Source: Desulfofarcimen acetoxidans DSM 771
GTDB lineage: Bacteria; Bacillota; Desulfotomaculia; Desulfotomaculales; Desulfofarciminaceae
DNA length: 64,000 nucleotides
Reading direction: 5' to 3'
NCBI RefSeq assembly: GCF_000024205.1
Contig: NC_013216.1
Span: forward strand, 1,550,001-1,614,000
The notes beneath the pieces were generated by a model. The model made no database searches, was not told the origin of the DNA, and saw only the letters and a list, made by a program, of their open reading frames with translations. Of this stretch, positions 28,188-57,530 are shown piece by piece. Both the position numbers and the translations under genes were made by a program. Positions within the stretch are counted from its first letter, which is position 1, and the number at the start of each line of letters is the position of its first letter.

Positions 28188-29819
28188 ATGGCAAAGAAAA
28201 TAGTAAAAATCGATCCTGTTAAGCAACAGATCACAAAGCAGTTACAGCCCCAGAAACGGGTTTGCGCCTACTGCCGGGTAAGTACCGACTCCCGTGAGCA
28301 GCACAATTCTTTCTCTGTACAGTTGGAATATTATAAAAGCTTTATTGAAAATCATGAGGACTGGCAGTTTGCTGGTATCTATGCTGACGAAGCCCGAAGC
28401 GGGACGAAGCTGCAAAAAAGAGATGACTTTTTAAGGATGATGAAGGACTGCGAAGATGGCAAGGTCGATATGATTATCACGAAATCCGTGACCCGCTTCG
28501 CAAGAAACACAGTGGACAGCATCCAGGCAATCCGGAGACTGAAGGAGCTTGGCGTTGCTGTCTTTTTTGAAAAGGAAAATATCAACAGCCTTTCGGAGAA
28601 AAGCGAACAAATGCTGACCATCTTAAGCTCTCTGGCACAGGGAGAAGCGGAAAGCGTTTCCACCAACAACAAGTGGGCGGCGATAAAACGCTTTCAGGAC
28701 GGTACCTTCATCCTCGGAACTCCCGCATACGGCTATACCAAGGATGAAAACGGCGAGCTGGTCATACAGGAGGAAGCAGCCGCGGTGGTCCGCCGTATCT
28801 TCCACGAATACTTAAATGGCAAGGGTACATATGCCATCGCTAAGGATTTATCGGAGGAAGGACTCCCCACGATACGCTCGGCTGAGAAATGGAATGACGG
28901 CGTGATAAAGGAAATGCTCCTAAATCCCATTTATACCGGCAAGCTGCTTCATCAGAAAACCATGACCACAGAGGTGCTACCCTTTAGGCGGCAGAGAAAC
29001 AAAGGCCAGCTTCCTCAGTACCTGATTGAGGATAACCATGCAGCCATTATCTCGCAGGATCAGGCGGAGGAAGTCAAAGAAATTTTTGAATACCGCAGAA
29101 AGCAGATGGGGGTGGATGATTTGGAGAAATACCAAAGCCGGTATGCCTTCAGCAGTAAAATCCTCTGCGGAGAATGCGGCAGCCTGTTCCGGAGGCAGAA
29201 AATCTACATCGGCAAGCCATATGAAAAAATCCAATGGTGCTGCCGCCAGCACATATTCGATAGCACAAAATGCGGTCAAAAGGCAGTCCGGGAGGATGAT
29301 GTTCAATGGGCTTTCACCACAATTTGGAACAAGCTCGTAAGCAATTATACCGAAATCCTCACTCCCCTTCTGGAGGTGCTTAAAAAGCTCCGGATAGACG
29401 AACAGCAGGAGCAGGAAATCGGAGAATGCGGTAACCGGATCATGGAACTGACAGAGCAGGGTCATATACTCAGCAGACTGGTATCGAAGGGGTATATCGA
29501 CCACGCGGTTTTTATAGAGCGTCAAAACGCTCTGACTATAGAGCTTGCCGCAGCTAAAAAGAAACGGAGCCAGCTGCTGGATAATAACGGCTTCGACCGA
29601 GAGATAGACGGAACAGAACAGCTAATAGAGCTAATCAGAAACAATCCTCACGTTATTGAAGAATACCGTGAGGATTTATTTTTACAGGCTATTGACAAAG
29701 TCATCGTACAGAAAAACGGACAAATCACCTTCTGGCTCATCAACCGGCTGGAATTGTCCGAGTCAATCAGGAAGGAGGCGGCAGAGGATGGTGCAAAGGC
29801 ATATGCCCATAGGATATAG
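28188..29819 (+). CDS. Large serine recombinase 1
   Basis: A 543-residue protein. The catalytic domain has YCRVSTDSREQ with Ser32 and the FARNTVDS segment. The Recombinase domain follows (YGYTKDENGELV), then the zinc beta-ribbon (ILCGECGSLFRR ... WCCRQH) and a coiled coil. It integrates and excises DNA through 2-bp staggered cuts. ATG 28188 is chosen for the AAAGGAG SD (28173-28179) rather than the longer frame at 28131. Confidence 0.88.
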   Translation: MAKKIVKIDPVKQQITKQLQPQKRVCAYCRVSTDSREQHNSFSVQLEYYKSFIENHEDWQFAGIYADEARSGTKLQKRDDFLRMMKDCEDGKVDMIITKSVTRFARNTVDSIQAIRRLKELGVAVFFEKENINSLSEKSEQMLTILSSLAQGEAESVSTNNKWAAIKRFQDGTFILGTPAYGYTKDENGELVIQEEAAAVVRRIFHEYLNGKGTYAIAKDLSEEGLPTIRSAEKWNDGVIKEMLLNPIYTGKLLHQKTMTTEVLPFRRQRNKGQLPQYLIEDNHAAIISQDQAEEVKEIFEYRRKQMGVDDLEKYQSRYAFSSKILCGECGSLFRRQKIYIGKPYEKIQWCCRQHIFDSTKCGQKAVREDDVQWAFTTIWNKLVSNYTEILTPLLEVLKKLRIDEQQEQEIGECGNRIMELTEQGHILSRLVSKGYIDHAVFIERQNALTIELAAAKKKRSQLLDNNGFDREIDGTEQLIELIRNNPHVIEEYREDLFLQAIDKVIVQKNGQITFWLINRLELSESIRKEAAEDGAKAYAHRI

Positions 29820-30687
29820 GCTGGTGGACGGCAAAATACAGCTTGACGAACACAAGGCGGCTGTTGTGAAAAGGATATTTTCAGACTATCTGTCCGGTGC
29901 CTCCACCTCCGCCCTCGCGAAGCAACTCACTGAACTGGGCTTCCCCAACGCCAACAACAAAGCCTCCTGGAACCATGGCTCCATCGGCAAGATACTGGAA
30001 AATGTCAAATATCTTGGGGATGAGTTCTATCCGCAAATGATTGAAGCCGAGCTGTTCGGGCGGGTGCAACAGCGCCGGCAAGAACGCTGTGACCAGCTGG
30101 GGCGAAGCCTCCAGCCTAACAGTGTGAACCGGCAATACCCATTCACGGGAAGGCTCCGCTGCGGAGAATGCGGCGAGGTTTACCGCAAATACGTTGAGCA
30201 TAGCGGCAAGGCATCCGAGAAGTCCCTCTGGAAATGTAAGAAATATATTTACAAGAACCGTGTACACTGCCGGTGTGGATTTCTATCAGATGAGCAGATA
30301 AAGGAAGCCTTCCTTGATGTGATAAACCGGCTTCTGGCAAGACCTCAAGTGCTCGACCGGGCACCATGGAAAGAGCCAATTGCAAATAATAGAGAGTTTA
30401 ATAACCTGGATCAACAAATCAAAGAGCTGGAAGCGGAAGGACGGTATTCGTCCAAAGAGCTTCCGGCTCTTATTTTTAACAGGGCAAAAGCCCTATATAA
30501 AACAGCGCGAATCAATGATGCCGAATACAACACCGAGAAGATGAAGCAAATGTTTTCAGGCAAACAGCTTCTTGTGGAGTTTGATGAGGAACTGTTTGAT
30601 ACCGTGGTAAAGCAAATCACGGTCCACGCCGACCATCAGCTGGTGTTTGAATTTATAAACGGCCTGGCCATGGAAACCGGATACTAA
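29788..30687 (+). CDS. Recombinase-like protein without a catalytic domain
   Basis: A 299-residue protein beginning directly in the Recombinase DNA-binding domain (MPIGYRLVDGKIQLDEHKAA) and continuing with the zinc ribbon (LRCGECGEVYRK ... WKCKKY) and a helical tail. The resolvase catalytic domain is absent although the start looks genuine (GGAGG at 29774-29778, overlapping the previous gene by 32 nt). It may be a directionality or specificity subunit for the flanking recombinases. A truncation product is the alternative. Confidence 0.75.
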   Translation: MVQRHMPIGYRLVDGKIQLDEHKAAVVKRIFSDYLSGASTSALAKQLTELGFPNANNKASWNHGSIGKILENVKYLGDEFYPQMIEAELFGRVQQRRQERCDQLGRSLQPNSVNRQYPFTGRLRCGECGEVYRKYVEHSGKASEKSLWKCKKYIYKNRVHCRCGFLSDEQIKEAFLDVINRLLARPQVLDRAPWKEPIANNREFNNLDQQIKELEAEGRYSSKELPALIFNRAKALYKTARINDAEYNTEKMKQMFSGKQLLVEFDEELFDTVVKQITVHADHQLVFEFINGLAMETGY

Positions 30688-30709
30688 GCCAAGGAAGGAG
30701 AAAAGCACA

Positions 30710-32368
30710 ATGCAGGCAGCGACAGCCAAAAAGAAAAGCATATCCATGATACCCTCCAAGCCGGAATACGACAGGAGTATAAAGCCTCAGTTTAAAGCCC
30801 TGCGGGTAGCGGCATACTGCCGAGTCAGCACCACGCTGGAGCAGCAGGAAACCAGCTATGAAGCCCAAGTTTCCTATTATACGGAAAAAATAAAGAGCAA
30901 TCCCAACTGGAAGCTCGCCGGGATCTACGCCGATGACGGTAAAAGTGCCACCAACACCAAAAAGCGCGAGGACTTCAATGCCATGATCGAGGACTGCATG
31001 GCTGGGAAAATCGACATGGTCATCACCAAGTCTGTCAGCCGCTTTGCTAGGAACACAGTGGATAGTCTTCAGAACATCCGCAAGCTCAAGGAAAAGAACA
31101 TCGCCGTGTTCTTCGAGAAAGAGGGCGTGAATACGCTGGAGGGTACCGGCGAGCTTTTAATAACCATCTTAAGCAGCCAGGCACAGGAGGAAAGCCGTAA
31201 CCTCAGTGAGAATACCCGGTGGGGTCTGGTAAGGCGGTTTGAGAACGGCGTCGTCTCAGTCAACCACAACAAGTTTTTAGGCTACACCAAAGATAAGAAC
31301 GGTGAGCTGGTCATCGTGCCGGAAGAAGCCGAGTTGGTCAGACGGATTTTCCGGCTTTATCTTGAAGGCAGCAGTTCAATACAGATAGCCAAGATATTAG
31401 AATCAGAAGGTGTCCTTACCGTTACCGGCAAAAGTAAATGGTGCTCCACTGTCATAGATAAAATGCTACTTAACGAAAAATATATGGGCGACGTCCTTCA
31501 GCAAAAGACCTATACCATCGATTTCCTCACCAAAAAACGTGTGAAAAACAAAGGTATTGTCCCGCAGTATTACATAGAGGACGACCACGAGGCCATCATC
31601 CCAAAGGAATTATATTATCAGGTGCAGGAGGAAAAGGCGAGGCGGGCAAGCCTCTGTAAACAGGCGATGTCTCGAAAAGCAAAGCGGGATGAAAAAGAAA
31701 AAAGCAGGTACAGCTCCAAATTCGCCCTGTCCGACATTATGGTCTGCAGGGAATGCGGACAGCCCTACCGCAGGCAGGTCTGGTCGAAATATGGCCAGAA
31801 AAACGCCGTGTGGCGGTGTGAGAACCGCCTGAAGAACGGGACCAAGAACTGCAAGCACTCCCCCACCTACAAAGAGGTCATGCTGTATGAAGCCATAATG
31901 GCCGCTATCAACAGTGTCGTGGAAAATCGCGGTGAGTTTGTCGGCGCCTTCCGGGAAAATGTCATCAGGGTCATCGGCAGTTACTCTACCAAGAATTTAT
32001 CTACCGAATATGACATGCAGATAGAAAAGCTCCAAACCGAGATGCTGGCTCTGATAGAGGAAAACGCCAAGCAAGGCGTTGTAACGGAGGATTTTGACGA
32101 ACGGTATAAAGGGATCTCCGAGCGGATAAACGACATGAAGCAAAAGAAGCTGGATCAGGTTCGGGAGCTGAAAATGGCTGAGAATTATCAGCAACGGCTC
32201 AACGATATGGACGCCTGCCTGAAGAAAACCACCTGCGATGTCAGGGACTTTGACCATGACCTTGTTCGAAGGCTCCTGCAGAGCGTCAAGGCCATCAGGG
32301 ATGACGAGATAGAAATCCAGTTTAAATCCGGCATTGTAATGAAGCAGAGGGTTTCATACTTTGATTAA
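30710..32368 (+). CDS. Large serine recombinase 2
   Basis: A 552-residue protein with catalytic Ser40 in AAYCRVSTT, SRFARNTVDSLQN, the Recombinase domain (GYTKDKNGELV), the zinc ribbon (VCRECGQPYRR ... WRCENR) and a C-terminal coiled coil. The SD AAGGAAGGAG (30690-30699) is 10 nt before ATG. All expected parts are present, so it should be active. Its close similarity to recombinase 3 suggests duplication. Confidence 0.88.
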   Translation: MQAATAKKKSISMIPSKPEYDRSIKPQFKALRVAAYCRVSTTLEQQETSYEAQVSYYTEKIKSNPNWKLAGIYADDGKSATNTKKREDFNAMIEDCMAGKIDMVITKSVSRFARNTVDSLQNIRKLKEKNIAVFFEKEGVNTLEGTGELLITILSSQAQEESRNLSENTRWGLVRRFENGVVSVNHNKFLGYTKDKNGELVIVPEEAELVRRIFRLYLEGSSSIQIAKILESEGVLTVTGKSKWCSTVIDKMLLNEKYMGDVLQQKTYTIDFLTKKRVKNKGIVPQYYIEDDHEAIIPKELYYQVQEEKARRASLCKQAMSRKAKRDEKEKSRYSSKFALSDIMVCRECGQPYRRQVWSKYGQKNAVWRCENRLKNGTKNCKHSPTYKEVMLYEAIMAAINSVVENRGEFVGAFRENVIRVIGSYSTKNLSTEYDMQIEKLQTEMLALIEENAKQGVVTEDFDERYKGISERINDMKQKKLDQVRELKMAENYQQRLNDMDACLKKTTCDVRDFDHDLVRRLLQSVKAIRDDEIEIQFKSGIVMKQRVSYFD

Positions 32369-32441
32369 GCGGCATTGGCAGGAGTGGCCGCAAGAGGTTG
32401 TTCCTGTTTTTCAAGACTGAGGGAGTTGAGAATAGATTATT

Positions 32442-33737
32442 TTGAAAAAGAAACTGACCATTATTCCAACACAAGAGCGGCATGATCAAAGTATTCAAGC
32501 AAAAACGGTCTGTTTGCGGGTAGCCGCTTATTGCCGTGTTAGCACGGTTTACGAGCGGCAGGAAAACAGCTATGACGCGCAGGTCGCTTGTTACATGGAC
32601 AAGATAGCGAATAATCCCGACTGGGTTCTGGCCGGCATATATTCCGATAATGGGAGAAGTGCCACCAATACCAAAAAGCGCGATGATTTCAACGCCTTAA
32701 TTGATGACTGCGCGGCCGGGAAAATTGATTTGGTGATCACCAAATCTGTCAGCCGCTTTGCCCGGAACACGGTGGATTCTTTACTGTTCATCCGAAAGCT
32801 CAAAGAGATGAATATCGGAGTCATATTCGAAAAGGAAGGTATCAACACACTGGAAAGTACAGGTGAATTGCTGATCACGGTTTTAAGCGGCCAGGCGCAG
32901 GAAGAAAGCCGGAATATAAGTGAGAACACCCGATGGGGTATCGTCCGACAGTTTGAGAAAGGCGTCTTTCATGTAAACTATAAAAAGTTTATGGGCTATA
33001 CCATGGACGAAAACGGGCAGTTGATTATTGTGCCGGAAGAAGCCGAAATCGTCAGAATGATTTTTCAGCTGTATATGGAAGGGCGAAGCTATATTCAAAT
33101 ATGTCAGGCTCTGGAAAACTCAGGCATAAAAACAGTTACGGGGAATTCCAAGTGGCGGGACAGTACCCTCATCAAAATGCTGAGTAATGAAAAATATATG
33201 GGAGATGCCCTGCTCCAGAAAACCTATACCATCAATTTTCTGACAAAAAAGAGGGTAGTCAACAAAGGCATCGTACCTCAATACTACGTTAAGAACAATC
33301 ATGAAGCCATTATTCCCGCGGATTTATTCCAAAGCGTTCAGGATGAAAAGCTCAGGCGAATCAATATGTCATGTGGGGAAAGCGCGCTGAAACAAAAATA
33401 CAGCGCCCTGTACGCGATATCAAACATCATGATATGCGGCGAATGCGGATATCCCTATCGCAGGGTGACACGCGCGAGGAGAGGTAAATCCAAAGTCGTA
33501 TGGCGCTGCAAAAACAGACTCATGAATGGGAACCGGTTTTGTACCAATTCTCCGACACTTGATGAGGGCACTCTCCACAAAATGATTGCCGCCGCGATAA
33601 ACAGAAATGCCAAAGCAAAAGCGATAAAAGACTACTTCCTCCCTGCTAATCAATATGACGATAGGCTATCGCGGGTTTTGATAGAACGCATCAAGGTTAA
33701 ACAGGATGGAAAGCTGCGTATTACATTTAAGAAATGA
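32442..33737 (+). CDS. Large serine recombinase 3 (shorter C-terminus)
   Basis: A 431-residue protein starting at TTG 32442, with catalytic Ser34 in AAYCRVSTV and the same SRFARNTVDS, GYTMDENGQLI and CGECGYPYRR blocks as recombinase 2. It is about 120 residues shorter: most of the coiled coil after the zinc ribbon is missing, and the protein ends LRITFKK. It may still be functional because the final beta segment is kept. From 33738 to 33889 no gene is seen; an ICE end could lie in this interval but no att repeat is recognisable. Confidence 0.83.
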   Translation: MKKKLTIIPTQERHDQSIQAKTVCLRVAAYCRVSTVYERQENSYDAQVACYMDKIANNPDWVLAGIYSDNGRSATNTKKRDDFNALIDDCAAGKIDLVITKSVSRFARNTVDSLLFIRKLKEMNIGVIFEKEGINTLESTGELLITVLSGQAQEESRNISENTRWGIVRQFEKGVFHVNYKKFMGYTMDENGQLIIVPEEAEIVRMIFQLYMEGRSYIQICQALENSGIKTVTGNSKWRDSTLIKMLSNEKYMGDALLQKTYTINFLTKKRVVNKGIVPQYYVKNNHEAIIPADLFQSVQDEKLRRINMSCGESALKQKYSALYAISNIMICGECGYPYRRVTRARRGKSKVVWRCKNRLMNGNRFCTNSPTLDEGTLHKMIAAAINRNAKAKAIKDYFLPANQYDDRLSRVLIERIKVKQDGKLRITFKK

Positions 33738-34185: not shown

Positions 34186-35409
34186 GTGAAGGTGCTCGTA
34201 TTGTACAGCTCAATTGAATTGTTCAGTGGGACCGGAGGTCTCGCGTTAGGATTACAAAAGTCAGGGTTTGACCATCGGGCTTTACTCGAATGGGATAAGG
34301 ACTCGTGCGACAATATCAAGGCTAACATTGAACGGGGCTTTCCCCTTGTCCAGAACTGGAATGTCATCCAGACCGACGTGAAATTGGTACATTACGACGA
34401 TTTTGGTGAAGGCATTAAATTAGTGGCCGGAGGGCCTCCCTGCCAGCCATTTTCTTTAGGCGGTAAGCATCAGGCATATAACGATAAAAGGGATATGTTC
34501 CCCGAAGCCGTTAGAGCTGTAAGGGAGCTGAAGCCACAAGCGTTTATTTTTGAAAATGTGAAGGGGTTGCTGAGAAAGTCCTTCAGTACATACTTTAACT
34601 ATATCATCCTGCAGCTGTCACATCCCGAAGTGACAATCAAGGATGGAATGACTTGGCTCGAACACCTGAAAGCACTGGAAGAATACCATACATCCGTTGG
34701 TGACCACGGACTTTCATATAACGTAGTCTTCCGGCTGGTTAATGCCGCCGATTATGGCGTCCCGCAGTCCAGGCACCGTGTGATTATCGTCGGATTCCGA
34801 AACGACCTGAACGCCAACTGGTCATTCCCGGACGCCACGCATTCGCAGGACGCTCTGCGATACTCCAAATGGATCAGCGGAGAGTATTGGGAAGAACACA
34901 AAATAGCAAAGGCGAAACGCCCGACGATATCAGAAACGGAGCGGCTCAGGATTCGGAAGGCAACGGAACGCGGAGAGCTTCTTGGCCGGTGGCAAACCGT
35001 GCGCGATGCTTTTCTCGGATTGTCTGACCCCCGAAAGAGCCAAAGAAACAGCAAATTTGAAAATCACGAATTCAGAGCTGGAGCCAAGCCGTATCCAGGG
35101 CACTCCGGAAGTGTCATGGACGAACCGTCGAAGACCCTGAAAGCCGGAGATCACGGTGTTCCAGGGGGCGAGAATATGATCGTGTTGGATGACGGTTCGC
35201 TCAGATATTATACAGTGAGAGAAAGCGCAAGGCTGCAGACCTTCCCTGACGAATATGTCTTCCACGGCTCGTGGACAGAGAGTATGCGGCAAATCGGAAA
35301 CGCTGTACCCGTACAGCTGGCTAATATTATTGGCAGCTCGGTTTATCACCAACTTGAAAGGTTGAATGAATATGAAAAACAACGACATTCCGGTTATAAA
35401 GCCGTTTAA
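34186..35409 (+). CDS. Type II DNA (cytosine-5) methyltransferase
   Basis: A 407-residue C5-MTase with motif I ELFSGTGGLALGL, catalytic GGPPCQPF (Cys86), FENVKGLL motif VI, QSRHRVIIVGF motif VIII and the late motifs RESARLQTFPDEY and QIGNAVPVQLA. The start is uncertain: GTG 34186, GTG 34192 or TTG 34201. The TTG has GAAGGTG 5 nt upstream and gives a protein beginning at the usual place. It overlaps the endonuclease gene by 44 nt. It modifies the sites the partner enzyme would cut. Confidence 0.88.
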   Translation: MKVLVLYSSIELFSGTGGLALGLQKSGFDHRALLEWDKDSCDNIKANIERGFPLVQNWNVIQTDVKLVHYDDFGEGIKLVAGGPPCQPFSLGGKHQAYNDKRDMFPEAVRAVRELKPQAFIFENVKGLLRKSFSTYFNYIILQLSHPEVTIKDGMTWLEHLKALEEYHTSVGDHGLSYNVVFRLVNAADYGVPQSRHRVIIVGFRNDLNANWSFPDATHSQDALRYSKWISGEYWEEHKIAKAKRPTISETERLRIRKATERGELLGRWQTVRDAFLGLSDPRKSQRNSKFENHEFRAGAKPYPGHSGSVMDEPSKTLKAGDHGVPGGENMIVLDDGSLRYYTVRESARLQTFPDEYVFHGSWTESMRQIGNAVPVQLANIIGSSVYHQLERLNEYEKQRHSGYKAV

Positions 35410-36001
35410 TCCACTGGATAAAAAACATCTCGGCGAAAGCGCCGCAGAAGCATTACTCGCGACAGACGTTCATCCCATACCACCCGAACCTTTTATAGGG
35501 GCGGGTGTATATGCTTTGTATTATACCGGCCCTTTTTCAGGTTATAAGGAACTTGCCGCAGTCAATCGGGATAATCAGTTCCGCTGCCCTATTTATGTTG
35601 GTAAGGCGGTTCCGGCCGGAGCGCGTAAAGGTGGGTTAGGTCTGGAGGTTGACCATGGACAAGCTCTTCAAAAAAGGCTTGCGGAGCATGGGGAATCAAT
35701 AACCGCCGCCACAAATCTGGATATCAACGACTTTTACTGCCGTTTTCTCGTTGTGGACGATATCTGGATTCCACTTACGGAGTCTTTGCTAATTGAGAGA
35801 TTTCAGCCGGTATGGAACCGTGTGCTTGACGGCTTCGGAAATCATGATCCCGGCAGTGGCAGGTATAATGGCATGATGCCGCAATGGGACTGTTTGCATC
35901 CAGGTCGTGCCTGGGCGACACGTTTAAAACCGTGCCAATACACAGCTGAGCAGGTAGAGCAGCGCGTGGCTGAATACTTACATAATTTCTTTAATAGCTA
36001 A
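35366..36001 (+). CDS. Eco29kI-like GIY-YIG restriction endonuclease
   Basis: A 211-residue protein. GVYALYYTG and PIYVGKAVPAG are the two strands of the GIY-YIG nuclease core; the later LLIERFQPVWNRVLDGFGNH matches the Eco29kI family with the metal-binding Glu and the Asn. Eco29kI itself cuts CCGCGG; the specificity here is not proven. Its gene overlaps its methyltransferase, as is common for R-M pairs. A terminator follows at once. Confidence 0.85.
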   Translation: MNMKNNDIPVIKPFNPLDKKHLGESAAEALLATDVHPIPPEPFIGAGVYALYYTGPFSGYKELAAVNRDNQFRCPIYVGKAVPAGARKGGLGLEVDHGQALQKRLAEHGESITAATNLDINDFYCRFLVVDDIWIPLTESLLIERFQPVWNRVLDGFGNHDPGSGRYNGMMPQWDCLHPGRAWATRLKPCQYTAEQVEQRVAEYLHNFFNS

Positions 36002-38594: not shown

Positions 38595-39176
38595 ATGGGA
38601 AGAGTGACCACCCCACGAGTTATTACACAGCAGATTAGGCAGCTATGCCAATCCATATCTGAATATGAACCTGCATATGTCGAGGTTAAAGCTGATCCAA
38701 GAAGTCTCATTAACGAGTGTTTCCCGAACGTTGCCGCACATGTTAAAGAGTATGGTGGTCAAAGCGTTTTCGGTAGGTGCATTTGGCAAAGAGCGAATGT
38801 CTTAATTGAAGCCGAGGCTCATGCCGTATGGCGGTCTCCAAGCGGTGACATGGTTGATATTACCCCGCACAACAATGGAGAAGATTCCATCTTGTTTTTA
38901 GTCGATCCCCAAATGGCATATGACGGCAATTGCATACCTAATATTCGAAAGGCATTGACTTCATCCCCATTGGTGGCGGAGTTCATTACTCTTTTTAATG
39001 AGCGTGACCAAATAGCGGCAAAGTCAAAAGGAAATACATTTTCATTACCGGCTGATATGGTCAGGCGGATGTTTGAAATTGAGCAAATCCTAAACCAGCG
39101 GGTTAGCCGCAATGATCCGTGCCCATGCCAATCTGGCATTAAATATAAGAAATGCTGCGGCAGTTACGAAACATAA
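38595..39176 (+). CDS. Second SEC-C protein
   Basis: A 193-residue protein ending in a SEC-C motif (RNDPCPCQSGIKYKKCCG). The preceding part (FGRCIWQRANVLIEAEAHAVWRS, in part) is a conserved-looking alpha/beta domain I cannot name. ATG 38595 is chosen for AAGGAG (38581-38586). It is tightly linked to its neighbours. Having two SEC-C proteins in one island is notable. Confidence 0.62.
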   Translation: MGRVTTPRVITQQIRQLCQSISEYEPAYVEVKADPRSLINECFPNVAAHVKEYGGQSVFGRCIWQRANVLIEAEAHAVWRSPSGDMVDITPHNNGEDSILFLVDPQMAYDGNCIPNIRKALTSSPLVAEFITLFNERDQIAAKSKGNTFSLPADMVRRMFEIEQILNQRVSRNDPCPCQSGIKYKKCCGSYET

Positions 39177-39204
39177 ACAAAATAACTCAGCTAACAATAA
39201 GAAG

Positions 39205-40776
39205 GTGTTTATAATCAATTCAAAAGAATATAGCGAAATAATTAAACTGATTGATAAAAAAATTGAGGGCGATTATTGGGATTATAAGCAAGAATGGCAT
39301 AGTGATAATGAGCGCCTTCTTCTTGATATATTATGTTTTGCCAATACCGTCCATAATAAAGATTGCTATCTAATAATTGGAGTTGCGGATAATGGTGAGA
39401 TTATAGGATTAACGGAAAATAGCCCAAATAGAAAGAATCAAGCGGCCGTAATAGATCTGTTATCAAATTCAATGTTCGCGGGCGATTTTGTACCAGAGGT
39501 TTCTGTTGAAACAATATTAGTAAACAAAAAGGAAATAGATGTACTTACCGTTTTTAACTCGTACAATGTACCCTTTTACCTTCGATCCAAGTCAAAAAAG
39601 TACCATTCAATTGTAGAAGGATATATTTACTCCAGAAAGAATGATAGAAATACTCCTATCTCTGAAAATAGCTCTATGCAGCAGATTGAATTGCTCTGGA
39701 AGAAAAGGCTGGGCTTACTTAGTCCGCCGTTGGAGCAGATTGTTTCAAGGATGAGGAACAAATCAGAATGGCAAGAAATTGGTGATACATACTACAATGT
39801 ATTTAACCCAGACTTTAAAATGAAGGAAGAGTGGGATCAGGAAGAGTATAGGGACTACAAGCGCGAATATTATTCGTATAATCAATATAATGAAAGCACT
39901 AATTATATCAATTTGCATGTTTTATGCAGGGAAACGGTTTTAAAAGAATTCCAAGTAGTGTTACTAGATAGTGGTAGATATAAGACTCCTGCCCCCACAT
40001 GGGGATTTATTCACGATCCAACCAGATATTCGGAGTCATTATATGTTTACAAATATATTCTAAAAGATAGTATAGATTACGCTTTACAGCAGTTTATATA
40101 TGATGAAGAAAGTGATGAGGCAAGAATCGCAAAGGGCAGATTTGATGAGGTTGTTCTGTATTTCGAAAATAAACAAGAACACGAGGAGTTCCATCAATCA
40201 ATAGAAGCTTATCCAACATGTGTTGAGAATTATATTAATGACGCAAAACTGAAGGAATATCATATTTCTTCTAACAACAAACTTGAAATTAAAGACTGCA
40301 CAGAAAAATTGATTACAGCTTTTGCTTTCAAAAGATTTTTATCTGATTATCGCAGGAAAAAAGCAGGTGTTGATGTTAAAAGAATAAAGTCTATTAGTAT
40401 AAGGCATAAGTCGTTAGATTTGTTATGCCCTTCCGATATAGCTGAACATAGAGTTGATATCAATGGAACTGGGAAAGTGACGCATTTCCTTTATAATAGA
40501 GAAAATAGGAAAGCGGTAAATTCATATTGTTATAGCGCGGATAAATATTGGACAAGGGATTTCCTTAATTTTATCGAGCCGATAACAACAGATTGGGAAA
40601 TCGACTACTCTATCGATATATGTAATGGTTATGAATGGAGATGCACTTTAAAATATGATGATGGTACATCTAAACTAATTAGCGGAAATGTTGTACCTCC
40701 TCCATTCTCCGATGATGTTGAACGTCGGATAAGAAACCTGGCTACTTTTGATGAGAATCCATGGTTGTTCACTTAA
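39205..40776 (+). CDS. AlbA_2 (Schlafen-like) domain protein
   Basis: About 523 residues. The AlbA_2 DNA-binding/ATPase-like domain is near the N-terminus: YWDYKQEWHSDNERLLLDIL, CFANTVHNKDCYLIIGVADNG and EIIGL. The remainder is long, charged and not recognised. The start is unclear: GTG 39205 is in frame but AAGAAGG abuts it. A non-canonical ATA or ATT codon just after could be used, or translation could begin at 39112 inside the previous gene. Confidence 0.65.
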   Translation: MFIINSKEYSEIIKLIDKKIEGDYWDYKQEWHSDNERLLLDILCFANTVHNKDCYLIIGVADNGEIIGLTENSPNRKNQAAVIDLLSNSMFAGDFVPEVSVETILVNKKEIDVLTVFNSYNVPFYLRSKSKKYHSIVEGYIYSRKNDRNTPISENSSMQQIELLWKKRLGLLSPPLEQIVSRMRNKSEWQEIGDTYYNVFNPDFKMKEEWDQEEYRDYKREYYSYNQYNESTNYINLHVLCRETVLKEFQVVLLDSGRYKTPAPTWGFIHDPTRYSESLYVYKYILKDSIDYALQQFIYDEESDEARIAKGRFDEVVLYFENKQEHEEFHQSIEAYPTCVENYINDAKLKEYHISSNNKLEIKDCTEKLITAFAFKRFLSDYRRKKAGVDVKRIKSISIRHKSLDLLCPSDIAEHRVDINGTGKVTHFLYNRENRKAVNSYCYSADKYWTRDFLNFIEPITTDWEIDYSIDICNGYEWRCTLKYDDGTSKLISGNVVPPPFSDDVERRIRNLATFDENPWLFT

Positions 40777-40798
40777 TTCTGGTGAATGGAGACTATAT

Positions 40799-41251
40799 AT
40801 GGCGCGTGATCCACAAATAACACATAAGATAATGTCATCCGTAAAATCAAAGGATACGCGGCCTGAAATCGCTCTTCGTAAAGCTTTATGGGGCATGGGG
40901 CTACGCTATAGGATAAATTATAAGCAAATACCCGGAAAACCAGACGTTGTTTTCACAAAAGCCAGAATCGCGGTATTTTGCGACGGAGATTATTGGCATG
41001 GCCACAATTGGGCTATCAGAGGATTAAAGAGCCTGGATGAGGAACTGTCCCATTACTCTGAGTTTTGGTCGAATAAAATTAGAGGGAATATCAACCGGGA
41101 TGAAACTGTAAATAACGAGTTAACGAATATGGGATGGCATGTTATTAGAGTTTGGGAAAGCGACATAAAAGCTGATGTAATGAGATGCGCATCAGATATT
41201 AAACAAATATATAAATCACATAGCAAAAGTGCGAACAGGAGATTAAAATGA
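40799..41251 (+). CDS. vsr: Vsr-type very short patch repair endonuclease
   Basis: A 150-residue protein: MSSVKSKDTRPEIALRKALW and the core PGKPDVVFTKARIAVFCDGDYWHGHNW (shown in shorter pieces here: PGKPDVVF, FCDGDYWHG) are diagnostic of Vsr. It nicks at T:G mismatches left when 5-methylcytosine deaminates, so it protects genomes carrying a C5-MTase such as that at 34186. ATG 40799 has GGAG 7 nt upstream. It overlaps the next gene by 4 nt. Confidence 0.85.
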   Translation: MARDPQITHKIMSSVKSKDTRPEIALRKALWGMGLRYRINYKQIPGKPDVVFTKARIAVFCDGDYWHGHNWAIRGLKSLDEELSHYSEFWSNKIRGNINRDETVNNELTNMGWHVIRVWESDIKADVMRCASDIKQIYKSHSKSANRRLK

Positions 41252-44200
41252 GTTTAAAAGCAGACATTGAAAGAATTTTTCTGGATAATACCAGCTATGC
41301 AAATCCTAGTCAAGCAGTAAACCAAGCAAGTTCGCTTAACGCATTATCAGCTGATTTATATACAGATTCAAAGCGATTTATTTATGAGCTTCTACAAAAT
41401 GCAGATGATTCTTCTCAAAACAATGACACTGTGAAAGTATGGATAAAAATTTTTAATAACAACTTAGTCATTGCTCATTCAGGGAGCCCATTTACTGTTC
41501 GTGATCTTCAAGGAATTTGCAATGTAAATAATGGCACAAAAAAGTCGGATCTGACAAAAACAGGCTATAAGGGTATTGGTTTTAAATCAGTTTTTGGACA
41601 ATCTGATAAAGTAACGATATATACAAAAAATGAATATTTTAGATTCGATGCCTCCTATTCGTTTGAATGGAAGTGGGCGGAATCAAAGACAATATGGGAG
41701 AATAATAACGACCGAAAATTCCAATTTCCCTGGCAGATAATCCCTATATATACAGAAGCAAAAGAAGTTTCGGAGCCAATTAATCAGTTCCTTAACCAAA
41801 ACAATGCAAACGTTGCGACAATAATTCAAATGAAGAATGTTAATGAGACGAGTCTGGCTGCTCAAAATCTATCGCAGAACTTAAATATGTTCTTATTTCT
41901 TAAGAATATTAGTGAGATTAATTTTGATATAGCAGAATCAGTTACTGTTAAAATTGATCGCACAAAAAAGGATAGAATCACTTTACAGAAAGGTAACAGT
42001 TCAAAAGTAGACTGGTTAATAAATACAGTTAGTCTTGCAGTGCCTAATGACGTAAAGGCTGTCTTACAAGATGAAAGAAATATTCCTGAAAAATTACTCA
42101 ATACTGATTCTATAGAGTTGTCTTTGGCCGCAAAAGTTGGGAGCGATGGCATTACTAAGCTTTCTAATCAAGAAAAACTTCTATATTCATATTTGCCGAC
42201 TGATGAGACGAAGTATTCTTTGCCAGTACTTGTTAATACAAGTTTTCTAACCGCTGCGAATCGCGAATCACTTCATGCTGATTCAAAATGGAACCAATGG
42301 CTATTTAAAACAATTGCCGTTGAAATTTTTAAGTGGATTTCAAGATTGGTTAATACTGAGTTCCATTTTCAAGCATATCAATTAATACCTAGGGAAACTA
42401 TTGCTGATGAACTGGGTAAGAAATTTAATGATGGAATTAAAGATGCGCTAAAAAGCATTCCGTTTGTTGTTTCTAGAAAAGAGCAACTAATTAAAATAGA
42501 AGAAACAATAGTTGATTTTACATACTTGTCTGAGAAGTATTTTATAGGCGAAGAACCAATTAAAAAGTTTATTATTGAGGCAAATGAGACGGGTAGTTCT
42601 AAACAATTTGCTAAGAACTCTAGTTTTTTCTCTGAGTTCAAAAGGCTTGGTGCTTCTTGTTTTGAATGGATACATCTCCAACGATTTCTAGCCTCGACAT
42701 ATTTTAAAGATGCTCACACAATAGCATATAATATTGAATTTATAAAACATTTAAAGAAACTCTGCGAATCAGATAAGGTTATAGAAATTTCAAAAGAAGT
42801 ATTAATGAAATTACCATTTATTTGGGATCATAAAAATCACATTAATTATCCATATCAAGTATGTTTTCCTACAGCAGACGATCAAAACTGGGATAATCCA
42901 AATAGTGAATTATCGTTCTTACATAAGCAATTGCAGATATGGCTGCTCAAAGATTCAGAAATTAGGCACTGGCTGGAGAGTTTGGGAGTTCAAGAAAAGA
43001 CGGATGTCACCTATATTACTCAGACTATTATACCGAAAATCGAAAGTTACATAACGCCCGAGAATGCATTGCAAACTATTCGTGATTTATTTAGTTTGTA
43101 TAAAAAAGGAAATCTTAGGGAAGATTTGATTGGACAATTATCGAGAATTAAACTTATAACGCAAAGCGATTCTTTATGTCCTGCCAGAGACTGTTTTCTT
43201 TCGGATTATTACAAACCGAGGATAGAAATTGAAAAAATAATAGAAAATGATATTTTCGTCTCTGAAACCTATTGTCTTGATATCCTTGAGAAGGATGAAT
43301 GGAAACGTTTTTTTAAATTGCTTGGGGTTCATGAGGGAATTACAGCCTTACAATTCACAAATAGACTTTATCGCTCTGAATTAACTAATGCTGAGTTTAA
43401 TGATGAATATTTTGGAACTAAGGATAAAAGGTTTACCCCTTTTCAATCTACGTTTATAGCGGATTGTTTCAGCGATTTAGCAACTATGACCTATATTCAA
43501 CTTACAGAAAATAACCCCAAGTTTGCTTTCAAATTCTGGTCTGATTATATTGAAAATTATCTGCCAAGTATTATCAAGACTCCAGCAATCGCATATTGGG
43601 GGTATGAGGGTAGGCCTGGACGGACAAGCGGTGATCGAGTAGAGAACTTTGTTCCATGGTTTATCAAGAATATGCAATGTATCCCTACTGTATCAGAAAA
43701 ATGTGAAATTGCCTCTTCTATATTTCTTAATACAGAAGAGATAAAAGCTATTGCTGGTAAATATTTGCCAGTATTCAATGGACCTGAATTATCGCCAGAT
43801 TGGAAAGCTTTCTTTAATTTTCGAACAAGCTTTGAATTATCAGATTACTTAGAATTGCTTGGTACAATTTCGTCAGATATAGACGATAAAGGAAGAATAA
43901 AAAATGATAACTACAAAAGAATTCAATCTATCTACGCGGCATTGTTAGCCCAATGTGTTAATTGGAGCACTGATGATATTGAAAAAGTCGAAGTATGGGC
44001 TATTAAAGGACATTTACTAAATACAAAAAATCAATTCACAGAATGTAGCTCTCTCAAATATTTCTTAGATGGTAATGAAGGGATATTTCAAAATCAATAT
44101 GATTTTGTAATGATAAATGCTGAAAATAAGAAACATCCAAATTTGATAACGTTTCTAGAGTGTTTTAACATAAGTGTATTGAGACAAAGCGAATTTGAAC

Positions 44201-46266
44201 TTATTTCAGTTCGAGAAGAAGTGTGTTCAAGTTTGAAAGAAAAACTTGCGTTTATTTATAGATATTTCGAATCTTGGATTAAAAGTGAAAATCAAGATGT
44301 AGATACGCTGAAATGCCTGGTTAATCTTAAAAATAAAATTGAAAAGCTAGAAATATATCAAGCTGTGAGCCTTGCCATAACATATAATGTGATAGATTTT
44401 ACAAAAGGGGTAAATGTTCATTTTGATGAAGATGCACTCTATGTAACAACCCCCTGGAACTCAAATAGCGTGTTATTAAAGTTATCAGAGGTTCTGAGTA
44501 GATATTTTGATTTGACTGGTCATGACAAAAAACTGGATTTTTTACTTAGGTCTACGAGTGATGAAATACAAAGATATTTCGAACAAGAAAACATACAAGT
44601 TCCAACAGATGTGGATGATTTCAAGGATGCAGTGGAGAGCACGAATGCTTTGATAGAGATTAACCCCAATATTATATCTCAAGATTTCTTTGATACGACA
44701 ATACATGATTTTGGTCGGCAGCAGTACATAAAACAACTTATACCTAGAGCTGTAAAAAATGTACTCGCACACCTTAGTGTATTGCCAGAGTATGATTGCT
44801 CATCTTCTTATATAATTGCAGAGAGTATTATTAGTGGTATTACTAAAAATGGAAATGAAATAACAGTAGTAGCCAGACCATCAGACTATGATAAAATACG
44901 ACTTTATTACGACGCTGAATTTGATGTACTTGAATATGTAGATGCAGAATTATGGTATGAAGATGGCGTTACACCACCAAAACAATTTACATTTGGGCAG
45001 CTTCTAAAAATGACAGGAATAAATAAAATTCCTATTAAAAATATTGATATTAAAGATTATGAACTTGAAACATTATTAAACAATCCAAAATCTGATGTTT
45101 TTGATTTTAGTGCCGTACCCTATTCACCAGAAAAAACTGCAAGAATTATTTCATCATTTGCGAATACAGATGGAGGTACGTTAATTTTTGGAATAAAAGA
45201 AACTTCATCACTTGATAACGAGATTGTAGGACTCAGTTCGGAATTTAAAGTTGTTGAGATTACAAAAAAAGCAATTTCTATGCTTTCCCCAATACCTGCT
45301 GTTACTTTTGACTGGCTAAAAGTTGGAGAACAATCTATTTTTGTAATTAGAACAGAAAAATCAGATGGAGATATACTATTAAATGAACAAAAATATATCC
45401 GAGAAAGTGCTACAAGTAAATTAGAGGAAATTCATATAAGCAGCCAATGCATATTGAATAATCCAGACATCAAAAGAACAATTGCAATTATCATAGCGAT
45501 AGAAACCTATTATCCAAAGCAAAGAAACCAAATTCCACCAGTAAAATACGCGGATAGCGATGCTGAAAAATTCAAGGAAGTCTTATTAAGCAAATTAGAT
45601 ATAAGCGAAGATGATATTTATATATTAAGAAATGAACAAGCAATAAAAACTGAAGTTGAGGATGTAGTTAAGTATCAAATATTTTCTATGTCAGAAGAAG
45701 ACAGATTGATTTTTTATTATGTGGGGCATGGTTTTCATAACGGAGTTACTAATTATCTTTCAACATATGATATGAGCCAATACGATATAGCCAATACAGC
45801 AATTTCCTTACGTAAATTATTACTTGACCCTTTGAAACAATCTAAATGCAAAAATGCATTGATTTGTATTGATGCTTGTGCGCAAAGCTTCACAGATGAA
45901 AATGCAAGGAGCAGTTTGTCAAATATCAACGATGAAGAATTAATAATTTTTTCAAATGATTTCCCTTACTATGCATTGTTTTTGTCTTGTCAAACAGGAG
46001 AAAAGTCGTATTCCTGCGATGATTTGAAAAATGGAATATGGACACATTATCTAGTCGAAGCTATTAGCGGTAATGTACATGAAATTATAAAGGAGAATAG
46101 ATATATTACTGATAGAGCATTGGGGGATTATTTGTCACACAGCGTATCTCAATATGCTAAAAACAAACTAGGATTTGATCAAAATCCCAAAACAATAATA
46201 GATGCAAGTTATGAAAATGTTGTTGTAGATATGAGGTTAGGACCAGAAAAAAGCGGATCATTGTAA
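41248..46266 (+). CDS. Giant sacsin-like ATPase - AlbA_2 - caspase-like protease
   Basis: A 1672-residue protein. Residues about 1-200 are a sacsin/Hsp90-type GHKL ATPase: the N-box is ELLQNADDSS (about 46-55) and the glycine box is GYKGIGFKSVFG (about 109-120). A long middle region of about 1000 residues is not recognised. Residues about 1265-1410 form an AlbA_2 domain (SSFANTDGGTLIFGIKE). From about 1410 to 1660 lies a caspase-like (C14) domain: IAIIIAIETYY, His1494 in YYVGHGFHNG and Cys1544 in CIDACAQSF. The dyad is intact, so it should be an active protease. The gene overlaps vsr by ATGA. The layout suggests a sensor-ATPase controlling a death-type protease, working with the R-M genes. 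Confidence 0.82.
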   Translation: MSLKADIERIFLDNTSYANPSQAVNQASSLNALSADLYTDSKRFIYELLQNADDSSQNNDTVKVWIKIFNNNLVIAHSGSPFTVRDLQGICNVNNGTKKSDLTKTGYKGIGFKSVFGQSDKVTIYTKNEYFRFDASYSFEWKWAESKTIWENNNDRKFQFPWQIIPIYTEAKEVSEPINQFLNQNNANVATIIQMKNVNETSLAAQNLSQNLNMFLFLKNISEINFDIAESVTVKIDRTKKDRITLQKGNSSKVDWLINTVSLAVPNDVKAVLQDERNIPEKLLNTDSIELSLAAKVGSDGITKLSNQEKLLYSYLPTDETKYSLPVLVNTSFLTAANRESLHADSKWNQWLFKTIAVEIFKWISRLVNTEFHFQAYQLIPRETIADELGKKFNDGIKDALKSIPFVVSRKEQLIKIEETIVDFTYLSEKYFIGEEPIKKFIIEANETGSSKQFAKNSSFFSEFKRLGASCFEWIHLQRFLASTYFKDAHTIAYNIEFIKHLKKLCESDKVIEISKEVLMKLPFIWDHKNHINYPYQVCFPTADDQNWDNPNSELSFLHKQLQIWLLKDSEIRHWLESLGVQEKTDVTYITQTIIPKIESYITPENALQTIRDLFSLYKKGNLREDLIGQLSRIKLITQSDSLCPARDCFLSDYYKPRIEIEKIIENDIFVSETYCLDILEKDEWKRFFKLLGVHEGITALQFTNRLYRSELTNAEFNDEYFGTKDKRFTPFQSTFIADCFSDLATMTYIQLTENNPKFAFKFWSDYIENYLPSIIKTPAIAYWGYEGRPGRTSGDRVENFVPWFIKNMQCIPTVSEKCEIASSIFLNTEEIKAIAGKYLPVFNGPELSPDWKAFFNFRTSFELSDYLELLGTISSDIDDKGRIKNDNYKRIQSIYAALLAQCVNWSTDDIEKVEVWAIKGHLLNTKNQFTECSSLKYFLDGNEGIFQNQYDFVMINAENKKHPNLITFLECFNISVLRQSEFELISVREEVCSSLKEKLAFIYRYFESWIKSENQDVDTLKCLVNLKNKIEKLEIYQAVSLAITYNVIDFTKGVNVHFDEDALYVTTPWNSNSVLLKLSEVLSRYFDLTGHDKKLDFLLRSTSDEIQRYFEQENIQVPTDVDDFKDAVESTNALIEINPNIISQDFFDTTIHDFGRQQYIKQLIPRAVKNVLAHLSVLPEYDCSSSYIIAESIISGITKNGNEITVVARPSDYDKIRLYYDAEFDVLEYVDAELWYEDGVTPPKQFTFGQLLKMTGINKIPIKNIDIKDYELETLLNNPKSDVFDFSAVPYSPEKTARIISSFANTDGGTLIFGIKETSSLDNEIVGLSSEFKVVEITKKAISMLSPIPAVTFDWLKVGEQSIFVIRTEKSDGDILLNEQKYIRESATSKLEEIHISSQCILNNPDIKRTIAIIIAIETYYPKQRNQIPPVKYADSDAEKFKEVLLSKLDISEDDIYILRNEQAIKTEVEDVVKYQIFSMSEEDRLIFYYVGHGFHNGVTNYLSTYDMSQYDIANTAISLRKLLLDPLKQSKCKNALICIDACAQSFTDENARSSLSNINDEELIIFSNDFPYYALFLSCQTGEKSYSCDDLKNGIWTHYLVEAISGNVHEIIKENRYITDRALGDYLSHSVSQYAKNKLGFDQNPKTIIDASYENVVVDMRLGPEKSGSL

Positions 46267-46664: not shown

Positions 46665-48461
<1,797 letters not shown>

Positions 48462-48472
48462 GAGAGACTTTT

Positions 48473-48587
48473 TCCGGTGGCAATAGCGAAGAGGTCATAC
48501 CCGTTCCCATCCCGAACACGGAAGTCAAGCTCTTCAGCGCTGATGGTACTTGGGGTTACCCCCTGAGAGAGTAAGACGTTGCCGGAA
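48473..48587 (+). rRNA. rrf: 5S ribosomal RNA, located between 16S and 23S
   Basis: TTCCGGTGGC at the 5' end pairs with GTTGCCGGAA at the 3' end. The internal CCCGTTCCCATCCCGAACACGG... core and GGTACTTGGGG are classical 5S. It sits only about 130 nt after 16S and before 23S, unlike the usual 16S-23S-5S order. Confidence 0.93.
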
Positions 48588-48625
48588 ACTAAATTTACCC
48601 TGTAAAAAGGGTTTTTAAACAACAT

Positions 48626-48701
<76 letters not shown>

Positions 48702-48716
48702 AAAAAAAGTTCTTTG

Positions 48717-51743
<3,027 letters not shown>

Positions 51744-53936: not shown

Positions 53937-56900
53937 ATGTTAAGTAAAATTACTCGAGGTGATTTTGTGAATGATGCTCTAGATATCAATTCAAATAGTG
54001 TTGTATATGCAGAGCAGATTTATAAAAAGTGTAATACCATACGAAGTCGTGTTGGAATTCCTAAAGGTGTAATAGTTGATTTCTATTGTCCTGAATGTCG
54101 TTCTCCAGTTTTTTTAAAGACAAGGGCTGGAGCTTCACCATGGTTTGAACATGAGCATTTAGATAAGGAAAATAGAACGGCTATACATCTTGCTTGTTCA
54201 AGATATACAAATGCGGACAAAAGGGAATATAAACCTGTAGATACATATAGAATCTCAGGTGCTATTCCAATATATCTGTTAGGGAAAAGTGATCTTTTTA
54301 AATTAAGAGTCTACTTTCCACAATTATCTGATCAATCCATGAAAATGTTAGTAGAATCAAATGCAAAAGTATGTCTTTTTCAAAATAATTCTTTGCATTA
54401 TGTGTTTAGCTCTCAAAATGTAAATTACATTGATATTGCAACTTATACAAAACATGGCTTTGAAGTTCAAATAAAAGATTCCAATGGGGATGTATTAAGA
54501 GATGTGCCGGAAGAAGTAAAAAGAAAATGGGTTTGTGGTATATCTGCTATAGATGTGAGTCGGGATATTTTTCATTTTTGGAATGATGGTGGTATGAGAG
54601 TATCAACTGGTGGATTTATTTATGTTGGTACATCATACAGAATATTAAAAAGCAGAACAGATTGGAATTATGACAAGGAAAATAATGCTATAGAAATTAA
54701 AAAGGTTGGCGAAGTTAATTTTAAAAATCTTGCCTCAATAGATGTTTATGAATTAACACCCATAGAGGTAACAACTGAATCATTGCAATATTTTGCAAAA
54801 CGAGGATATCTTTTAAAACATAGAAATGATGAAATAATTCCACTTTGGCCGCCAGCAGTTTCTAAAGGTAGAGACTTGATTTATAAAGACAAAACATCTT
54901 TGTTTTTGCACAAAACTAGCAGAGGTAATATAAAGGATCAAAAGCTTTTTACGTTGGAGGGAAACAAAATCATTCAGATTCAATCACGTATATTGAAAAT
55001 AAATGATGTCTCCGAGATAGTTCAAATTAATGTTGGTTTCTCAAAGCCGATAATGCTTGGCGGAGAACTGACACCTATGTTATACGATATACATCAAGAT
55101 GAAAATGCAATGTGTTGCGAGGCAAGGGGCTTAGAGTTAAAAGTTGAAGATAAAAATGCATGTGCAGTAGCTACATCATATAAAGAATTGCCCATAGAGG
55201 GTAAGTTCTATATAAAATCAAATTTACCTTTTGTGACCTATTTTAAGAGGGGTAACTTTGTAATTTATTCAAGCTTTAATTCTGGTTATATTGAAGGAGT
55301 AAAATTTGATGTAGAGGTATTTGTTGATTGTGGTTCTTGGGGCAAATATTGTTATTCCATGCAAAAGAAAAATTATAAGCAGGGTACTATTAACTGGGAT
55401 TCTGTGTATAGGCGGTTGTTACTTTGTCATGGTCAAACAATAATGGCTAATAAGCAATTACAGCAAAATCTTGCCCGGCGCCATATCCTGCCGATAGATG
55501 GCATTCGATTTAACCCCCTGGAACGTCGTGTCTATGACCAACTTGAGGATTACTGTAAGGGTTTGGCCATGCAAATCCGTAAACATGGAGACAGGCAATC
55601 ACAACAGATGATGAGCTTTTTACTTAGCTTTCTGCGGTTACGATTCGCTTCCAGTCTTTATGCATTCCATAAGACATTAGAACGCCGTCTGCATAAAGTG
55701 GAAGCAACGTTGCGGCAGCAACTTGTAATGGAGGCAGAAGATTCTGGGTCCAATTCTTCGCTACAGGATGTTATTTTTGAGGGGGAAGATGAAGACGACT
55801 TGGTGGTTGTGGAATCATTGCTCCAAAACCGGACACAGGATGATTTGGAATGGGAACGCGAATGTCTCAAGAGCATGCTTAAAGACATGGCAGACCTCAC
55901 CGGCGACTCATCTAAAATGAAGCTGCTTTTACAAACGCTGGATCAACGTAAAGACCGGCAAACCGGGCGTATCCAGCAAACGGTTATCTTTACCCGTTTT
56001 TACGATACGCTCACTGATATCGTGAAGCGACTCTGCCAGGCAGACCCGCAGATGCTAGTAGGCACCTATTCGGGGCAGGGAGCACAGTGTTTTAATTCGG
56101 TTACAGGCCGTATGGTTAACCTAGATCGTGAAGAGGTAAAAGAAAGATTCTTGCGCAGCGAGGTTGACATCTTAGTGTGTACTGACGCAGCAGCGGAGGG
56201 TTTAAACCTGCAGACTGCTGATCTTTTGGTTAATTTCGATCTGGGTTGGAACCCAATGAAAGTTGAGCAGCGAATAGGGCGTATTGACCGTATTGGACAA
56301 AAACATGAGGATATTTACGTCCTCAACCTATGCTATGCCGGAAGTGCAGAAGAAGTGGTGTATGGCCGTTTACTAAACCGCTTAGCTAATGCCAATATGA
56401 TTGTTGGCACGCAGCAGGTATCGCTTCTGCCGGTGGAACAAGAAGAGTTCAGCCAGTTGGCTGAAGGAACACTGACACCCGAAGAATTGATGGCCCGTGC
56501 CCAAGAACGACTCGTGTTGCAACGCCAACATACAGAGAGTATGGAAATTAGCCCTAAAGAACTTTATGAAATTTACAAGCGTATGGCCCAGATTGATGAT
56601 CAGAGAACTACTCCGGTAAATCTGGAGGCAATATGGGAAACACTGAGCCAATCGCAGTACCTGCGCCATTTGGGTTGCACCGTTTCGGATGAACCAGCGA
56701 AGCCAGCGTTGACATTGTTCGGAATTGATGGCATACCCAGTGGAACAGTCCTTACTACTTCCCGCGCGCTTTACGAGGAAGGTTTGGCTGATGGCGGCGC
56801 ACGCGTGCATTTCGCCTCTTACGGTGATCCGTTCTTTGATGCTATTTTGGAGCACCTGAGCAGTTTCGAACTTCCTTCCTGTGTTCGGCGAATCGCCGTC

Positions 56901-57530
56901 CCTGTTCCCGGTTTGGAGGATGTTGAAGTGGTTATTTATGTAGCAATCTGCCGTGGCGACGGTGGTGTTTGCCAAATGCGGCTTATCCGAGCGTGGAGTG
57001 ACCTCAAGGATTTGGCTTTAGCAGAGGATGAGACCATAAATGACGAGGAAATAATGTCGCAACGAGAACAACTTTACCAGCTGGTTTTGAAAGAGTTTGA
57101 GCCCTACCTGGTAGCAGACCGCATTGAACGAGAAAACATACGGGCTGCTCTGGTGCATGAAATGCTCAATTTCCTGGTAATTCAAGATTTTCTTAAAGTC
57201 AGGGCAAGTTTTGCCGGAGAAAATGCACTCTTTTGGCCGGTTTTAAAGGAAGTTGCCTCTCTAATTGAGGAGCGCGAGCCCCTTCAGGCAACCGGTTTAC
57301 CGGCGGACATCCTGAGGAGATTCACCGGCGAATTACTTTTTGCTTGCCAGGTTCCTACTATTGGTGATAAAACCATCCTGCCGGTACCGCGCATAATGGG
57401 CCGGGCGGCAGTTGAAGCCGCAAGTCGTCTGGCGGACAGTATGAAGAAGAAAAGGGGTAGGCTCCTTGTTGATACAGTTTTGGCCCGACTGCAGCGTGAA
57501 GTAGAGGTAAGAAAAAGATTGATTAATTAG
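53937..57530 (+). CDS. Chimeric protein: AT-rich zinc-ribbon module fused to the C-terminal half of an SNF2-type helicase
   Basis: A 1197-residue frame. Residues about 1-505 (AT-rich DNA) start with a possible zinc ribbon (DFYCPECRSPVFLKTRAG, then WFEHEHLD, resembling CoiA-like proteins) and continue as a beta-rich region of unknown type. From about residue 508 (nt 55460), GC content rises sharply and the protein becomes an SNF2/RapA-like helicase lobe 2: TDAAAEGLNLQTADLLVNFD and RIGRIDRIGQKHEDIYVLN, plus a long C-terminal region. Lobe 1 (Walker A, DEAH) is absent, so helicase activity is unlikely. The composition step at a domain boundary suggests in-frame fusion by deletion. No SD is clear before ATG 53937; an alternative start is GTG 53967. 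Confidence 0.65.
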   Translation: MLSKITRGDFVNDALDINSNSVVYAEQIYKKCNTIRSRVGIPKGVIVDFYCPECRSPVFLKTRAGASPWFEHEHLDKENRTAIHLACSRYTNADKREYKPVDTYRISGAIPIYLLGKSDLFKLRVYFPQLSDQSMKMLVESNAKVCLFQNNSLHYVFSSQNVNYIDIATYTKHGFEVQIKDSNGDVLRDVPEEVKRKWVCGISAIDVSRDIFHFWNDGGMRVSTGGFIYVGTSYRILKSRTDWNYDKENNAIEIKKVGEVNFKNLASIDVYELTPIEVTTESLQYFAKRGYLLKHRNDEIIPLWPPAVSKGRDLIYKDKTSLFLHKTSRGNIKDQKLFTLEGNKIIQIQSRILKINDVSEIVQINVGFSKPIMLGGELTPMLYDIHQDENAMCCEARGLELKVEDKNACAVATSYKELPIEGKFYIKSNLPFVTYFKRGNFVIYSSFNSGYIEGVKFDVEVFVDCGSWGKYCYSMQKKNYKQGTINWDSVYRRLLLCHGQTIMANKQLQQNLARRHILPIDGIRFNPLERRVYDQLEDYCKGLAMQIRKHGDRQSQQMMSFLLSFLRLRFASSLYAFHKTLERRLHKVEATLRQQLVMEAEDSGSNSSLQDVIFEGEDEDDLVVVESLLQNRTQDDLEWERECLKSMLKDMADLTGDSSKMKLLLQTLDQRKDRQTGRIQQTVIFTRFYDTLTDIVKRLCQADPQMLVGTYSGQGAQCFNSVTGRMVNLDREEVKERFLRSEVDILVCTDAAAEGLNLQTADLLVNFDLGWNPMKVEQRIGRIDRIGQKHEDIYVLNLCYAGSAEEVVYGRLLNRLANANMIVGTQQVSLLPVEQEEFSQLAEGTLTPEELMARAQERLVLQRQHTESMEISPKELYEIYKRMAQIDDQRTTPVNLEAIWETLSQSQYLRHLGCTVSDEPAKPALTLFGIDGIPSGTVLTTSRALYEEGLADGGARVHFASYGDPFFDAILEHLSSFELPSCVRRIAVPVPGLEDVEVVIYVAICRGDGGVCQMRLIRAWSDLKDLALAEDETINDEEIMSQREQLYQLVLKEFEPYLVADRIERENIRAALVHEMLNFLVIQDFLKVRASFAGENALFWPVLKEVASLIEEREPLQATGLPADILRRFTGELLFACQVPTIGDKTILPVPRIMGRAAVEAASRLADSMKKKRGRLLVDTVLARLQREVEVRKRLIN

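Follow-up and report, generated by a model that had tools for sequence, protein, structure and literature searches.

A caspase-armed Tiamat-type protein of Desulfofarcimen acetoxidans DSM 771 as a candidate single-gene anti-phage system

One long reading frame of Desulfofarcimen acetoxidans DSM 771 appears to join a sacsin/Hsp90-like ATPase, an AlbA_2 segment and a caspase-like protease, and this raises the questions of whether such a fusion is real, to which family it belongs and what it may do in the cell. The window, that is, the whole 64,000-nucleotide stretch of DNA that was analysed, contains this gene at 41248..46266 on the + strand (ORF, Pfam, PADLOC and NCBIfam). The frame is uninterrupted from the ATG at 41248 to the stop at 46266 and encodes 1672 amino acids, and its start and the stop of the preceding vsr gene (40748-41251; Pfam, PADLOC) share four bases. 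Pfam detects SACS, SLFN_AlbA_2 and Peptidase_C14 in the protein, each above the curated cut-off, and the GHKL boxes, the segment FANTDGGTLIFGIKE, His1494 and Cys1544 are all present. Thus the sequence-only reading, which had placed a GHKL ATPase, AlbA_2 and a His1494/Cys1544 dyad in one frame, is confirmed by Pfam, NCBIfam and the intact frame.

When genome contigs were scanned, 17 loci related to the window protein were recovered. Chance, a frameshift, an assembly join and a gene-prediction artefact were considered as the origin of the caspase fusion and rejected, because the identical domain order is found in 12 of the 17 loci (intact in 10, with a broken frame in L013 and interrupted by an insertion sequence in L014). 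Among the remaining loci, L018 is decayed and four have different C-termini. In L014, an Aquimarina homologue, the apparent insertion sequence (L014:14560-16500) breaks the caspase domain after the Cys motif; since this caspase is interrupted and L018 is decayed, neither was counted as evidence of function. The gene at 41248-46266 is the sole C14 gene found in the D. acetoxidans DSM 771 genome.

A C14 caspase-type protease forms the C-terminal part of the protein (residues 1405-1672; 45460..46263, + strand) and is matched by Pfam Peptidase_C14 over residues 1411-1610 (E 2e-9). An AlphaFold2 model of residues 1131-1672 has modest confidence (mean pLDDT 68.3), and its top PDB match in Foldseek is the MALT1 paracaspase 3v4o (E 7e-8, target TM-score 0.76), with caspases and metacaspases ranking next; the C14 fold proposed earlier for this domain is therefore borne out by the model. 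The catalytic residues are His1494 (codon 45727..45729, + strand) and Cys1544 (codon 45877..45879, + strand), the latter with Asp1542 two residues earlier. The residues H1494, G1495, D1542 and C1544 do not vary across the tabulated set of 11 intact genes with a caspase, which includes the gene of the window, so the dyad first named from one sequence is retained by the homologues. The caspase is under purifying selection, with dN/dS values of 0.10, 0.15 and 0.14 in three pairs, in one of which synonymous divergence is near saturation. In a PDB sequence search the domain gave a weak match to metacaspase-9, with an Asp of which Asp1438 aligns; both Asp1438 and Asp1542 are conserved, and from these two aspartates only, by analogy with meta- and paracaspases, cleavage after Arg or Lys is predicted. 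An Agrobacterium plasmid (L030:2051-4473) also encodes a caspase protein with 38% identity to that of the window; it follows a predicted pPIWI-associating nuclease, and the two genes are a possible nuclease-protease pair.

The N-terminal part is a sacsin/Hsp90-type GHKL ATPase (residues 38-233; 41359..41946, + strand) with an N-box (E47/N51) and a glycine loop (106-113). Pfam SACS covers residues 38-233 (E 8e-12), the NCBIfam model P_loop_sacsin reaches 83.6 bits (cut-off 50), and an alignment of 16 homologues shows no variation at the GHKL residues E47, N51, G109, G111 and K113. When residues 1-1200 were modelled by AlphaFold2 (mean pLDDT 74.9), the best PDB matches were Hsp90s with low TM-scores, and we therefore limit the claim to an Hsp90-type ATPase region and do not extend it to the whole Hsp90 arrangement. 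A PDB sequence search gave a weak match to sacsin (5v47).

Most of the protein is accounted for by a known defence family. The PADLOC profile of TmtA (PDLC03972), which we take to be the protein of Tiamat, matches residues 1-1132 with 1049 bits over profile positions 1-1113 of 1302. About 1000 residues had been regarded as unassigned, and they fall in this recognised TmtA region. Because the first approximately 1130 residues belong to the TmtA family, the window protein is a variant of a described defence system, Tiamat, and not an undescribed one. The middle region (residues 381-1130; 42388..44637, + strand) is TmtA-specific by coverage of PDLC03972 and is presumed to be the sensing part; it includes the portions of the sensor with the lowest conservation. 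The NOV_C domain (DUF3883) of Pfam is missing from the window protein and is carried by the relatives L053, L054 and L031. Since L053 and L054 match PDLC03972 from end to end and terminate in NOV_C, the window protein diverges from this profile exactly at its C-terminus. Another TmtA relative from Bacteroidota (L055:663-5258) has an extended N-terminus and a C-terminus that matches neither NOV_C, AlbA_2 nor caspase.

In the branch of the window protein, the sensor ends in an adaptor of about 100 residues, after which come AlbA_2 and then an effector, which is a caspase in most members. The adaptor (residues 1160-1262; 44725..45033, + strand) was recognised in the alignment by the pattern RPSD...ELWxEDG...GxLLKxTxINxIP and is seen at other TmtA C-termini. 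The Schlafen-type AlbA_2 (residues about 1278-1390; 45079..45417, + strand) is detected by Pfam SLFN_AlbA_2 over residues 1288-1376 (E 1e-9), and the region gives a weak profile match to the structures of Schlafen-8 and Schlafen-5. The effector differs among relatives: L016 has a TOPRIM-containing end resembling that of RT-Toprim proteins, and in L017 and L019 the effector is a separate overlapping gene composed of AlbA_2 and a helical part with an RHLFSHRNG motif, which is read as HEPN-like on the sole support of a weak RiboL-PSP-HEPN match in the related gene of L064. In L008 a separate gene combines AlbA_2, with a match falling below the Pfam cut-off, and an LmuA-type part that shares 49% identity over 168 residues with the C-terminus of LmuA in L007. 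Since L008 nests within the caspase clade of the tree, the effector appears to have been exchanged recently while the sensor was retained. This swapping strengthens the reading of the fusion as a sensor joined to an effector, as had been proposed from the window sequence.

The same arrangement was found outside this branch by a genome search with the adaptor only, in which the adaptor was found at the end of four proteins from Bacteroidota that belong to a different TmtA subfamily (PDLC03967). Three of the four directly precede an AlbA_2 gene (L063, L064 and L065); this gene encodes AlbA_2-TIR in L065 (TIR_2 67 bits, AlbA_2 42 bits) and AlbA_2-HEPN-like proteins in L063 and L064. The adaptor is also present in L066 and in L029, a plasmid-borne TmtA of Calothrix, without an adjoining AlbA_2 gene. 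In the two-gene versions the split lies between adaptor and AlbA_2, and on this gene architecture the two are proposed to form a coupling joint. AlbA_2 itself looks like part of this joint rather than a separate activity, because it is constant while the domain following it varies among TIR, TOPRIM, HEPN-like and LmuA-type.

The same constancy bears on a different reading, in which AlbA_2 is a toxic Schlafen-like nuclease that is activated or released by self-cleavage of the caspase, as in Canu, so that one chain holds a protease-gated nuclease. AlbA_2 lies immediately upstream of the caspase, as this reading would have it, and activation of a nuclease by a caspase is a mechanism already established in bacterial defence (PMC12799240); however, it is the domain behind AlbA_2 that switches, and AlbA_2 of the caspase branch begins with a degraded form of the usual E(x4)EFK motif, in which D, E, I or V stands at position 1283 and the Lys is no longer present. 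The motif is intact or nearly so in the AlbA_2 of L017, L019 and L063. We consider a gated nuclease unlikely, and we lean, with some reserve, towards adaptor and AlbA_2 as a general plug-and-socket, by which two Tiamat subfamilies may recruit interchangeable effectors (caspase, TIR, HEPN-like, TOPRIM or LmuA-type) in cis or in trans. The greatest novelty of the finding lies in this plug-in joint, which, if true, would be a prokaryotic counterpart of the adaptor logic of death-fold or TRADD-N domains.

The caspase form spans five phyla, with members in Bacillota, Bacteroidota, Shewanella, a deltaproteobacterial MAG and Spirochaetota. Phyla are intermixed in the tree of relatives, which suggests horizontal spread; the tree has a small sample, and its deeper joins are limited by long branches. 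Presence is patchy: among 398 sampled genomes of its own phylum, the only full-length match is the window's own gene, with two weak matches elsewhere. Searches of phage and viral collections gave no full-length member, one 97-residue phage match and two distant relatives in viral contigs.

A neighbourhood survey shows the gene and its relatives among defence genes, in keeping with the defence role suggested earlier. The same-strand run that ends in the caspase-armed TmtA gene includes an Eco29kI-type restriction-modification pair, a C5 methyltransferase adjoining the restriction enzyme (34186-36001; Pfam, PADLOC), vsr is a further defence neighbour in the window, and the relatives have Lamassu (L004, L005 and L007), IetS (L020) and HamB of Hachiman (L014) as neighbours. 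Across the gene context of 18 loci no conserved partner gene or substrate gene was found, and some relatives encode the effector as a second gene. A separate AlbA_2 protein of 554 amino acids is encoded at 39112-40776 (PADLOC candidate PDC-S50, 417 bits) and is not conserved beside the relatives. Upstream of the defence genes, several genes for large serine recombinases form a row with a sigma-like gene (26277-33737); related recombinases are also upstream in L005 and L018, which suggests a mobile island. About 500 bases past the caspase gene begins a complete rRNA operon (46773-51722; 16S, 5S, tRNA-Met and 23S), within which the small ORFs listed are spurious, and downstream of it are a large DrmD/PLD-helicase-like gene, a gene with HTH plus M78 peptidase and a UvrD-like helicase (53937-62096). 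A c-di-GMP-I riboswitch (22818-22907) and a pemK RNA motif (26936-27016) were found above the Rfam gathering scores.

Distribution and neighbours also bear on whether the protein is directed against phages at all. It could instead serve stress response or quality control, with an Hsp90-like chaperone triggering caspase-mediated death upon proteotoxic stress. For eukaryotic sacsin, in which Hsp90-like modules are combined with other domains, a role in unfolded-protein responses, including suicidal ones, has been proposed (PMC3710099). A quality-control protein is nevertheless hard to reconcile with the patchy presence noted above, with the recurrent defence-gene neighbours and membership in a defence family, and with swaps to TIR, TOPRIM and LmuA-type modules, all of which are common in defence systems; we therefore regard it as improbable.

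We consider it likely that the gene is a single-gene anti-phage suicide system, a TmtA in which NOV_C is replaced by the adaptor, AlbA_2 and a paracaspase-like protease. In the mechanism that we infer, the long middle region, together with the ATPase clamp of Hsp90/sacsin type, would hold the protein inactive and recognise a product of infection, and an ATP-dependent rearrangement or oligomerisation would then be relayed via the adaptor/AlbA_2 joint. Caspase domains brought together in this way would be activated by proximity and would cut proteins of the host or the phage, the cleavage site probably lying after Arg or Lys, and growth would stop before phage release (abortive infection). Relatives carry TIR or HEPN-like modules in place of the caspase, and since modules of these kinds mostly deplete or damage components of the host, this exchange points to general toxicity. 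It thereby speaks against a non-abortive response, in which the infection would be cleared, without killing the cell, by cleavage of one specific protein of phage or host by the effector. Cell death is not required by anything in the sequence, and a specific endopeptidase activity is possible for bacterial caspases (PMC12799240), but in view of this exchange we judge a non-abortive response very unlikely and keep abortive infection as the preferred outcome.

Tiamat is widely annotated, and a 2026 review groups it with the systems of Millman et al. 2022 and lists its mechanism as unknown (PMC12926258). Natural versions ending in caspase, TIR, HEPN-like, TOPRIM or LmuA-type domains separate sensor from effector, and this makes the mechanism of Tiamat testable via simple catalytic mutants. 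We found no open-access literature naming Tiamat together with caspase, sacsin or AlbA_2, and an earlier description elsewhere is possible. The window protein resembles Tiamat in being encoded by a single large gene, with a sacsin/GHKL ATPase at the N-terminus and about 1100 homologous residues, but end-to-end members finish in NOV_C (DUF3883), whereas the window protein has the adaptor, AlbA_2 and caspase instead. With eukaryotic sacsin it has the Hsp90-like sacsin domain, the ATPase module alone, in common; no ubiquitin-like, DnaJ or HEPN region was found in the window protein, and sacsin is without a caspase. In Canu, too, a MALT1-like caspase is a bacterial immune effector (PMC12799240), but Canu is a multi-gene system with a co-encoded pro-nuclease, while the type found in the window is without a conserved partner gene; the Canu paper mentions no Hsp90, Schlafen or AlbA (PMC12799240). 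The bacterial caspase defences covered in that 2025 paper are type III CRISPR, gasdermin/CARD, NLR-like, Thoeris and Canu systems, and a sacsin-type sensor is absent from them (PMC12799240). Common to these and to the window protein is a caspase-family protease that executes the response; the sensors differ, and none of the others is sacsin/Hsp90-like. The range of sensors by which bacterial caspases may be driven is extended by a sacsin/Hsp90-like protein, and this bears on the origin of caspase-based immunity.
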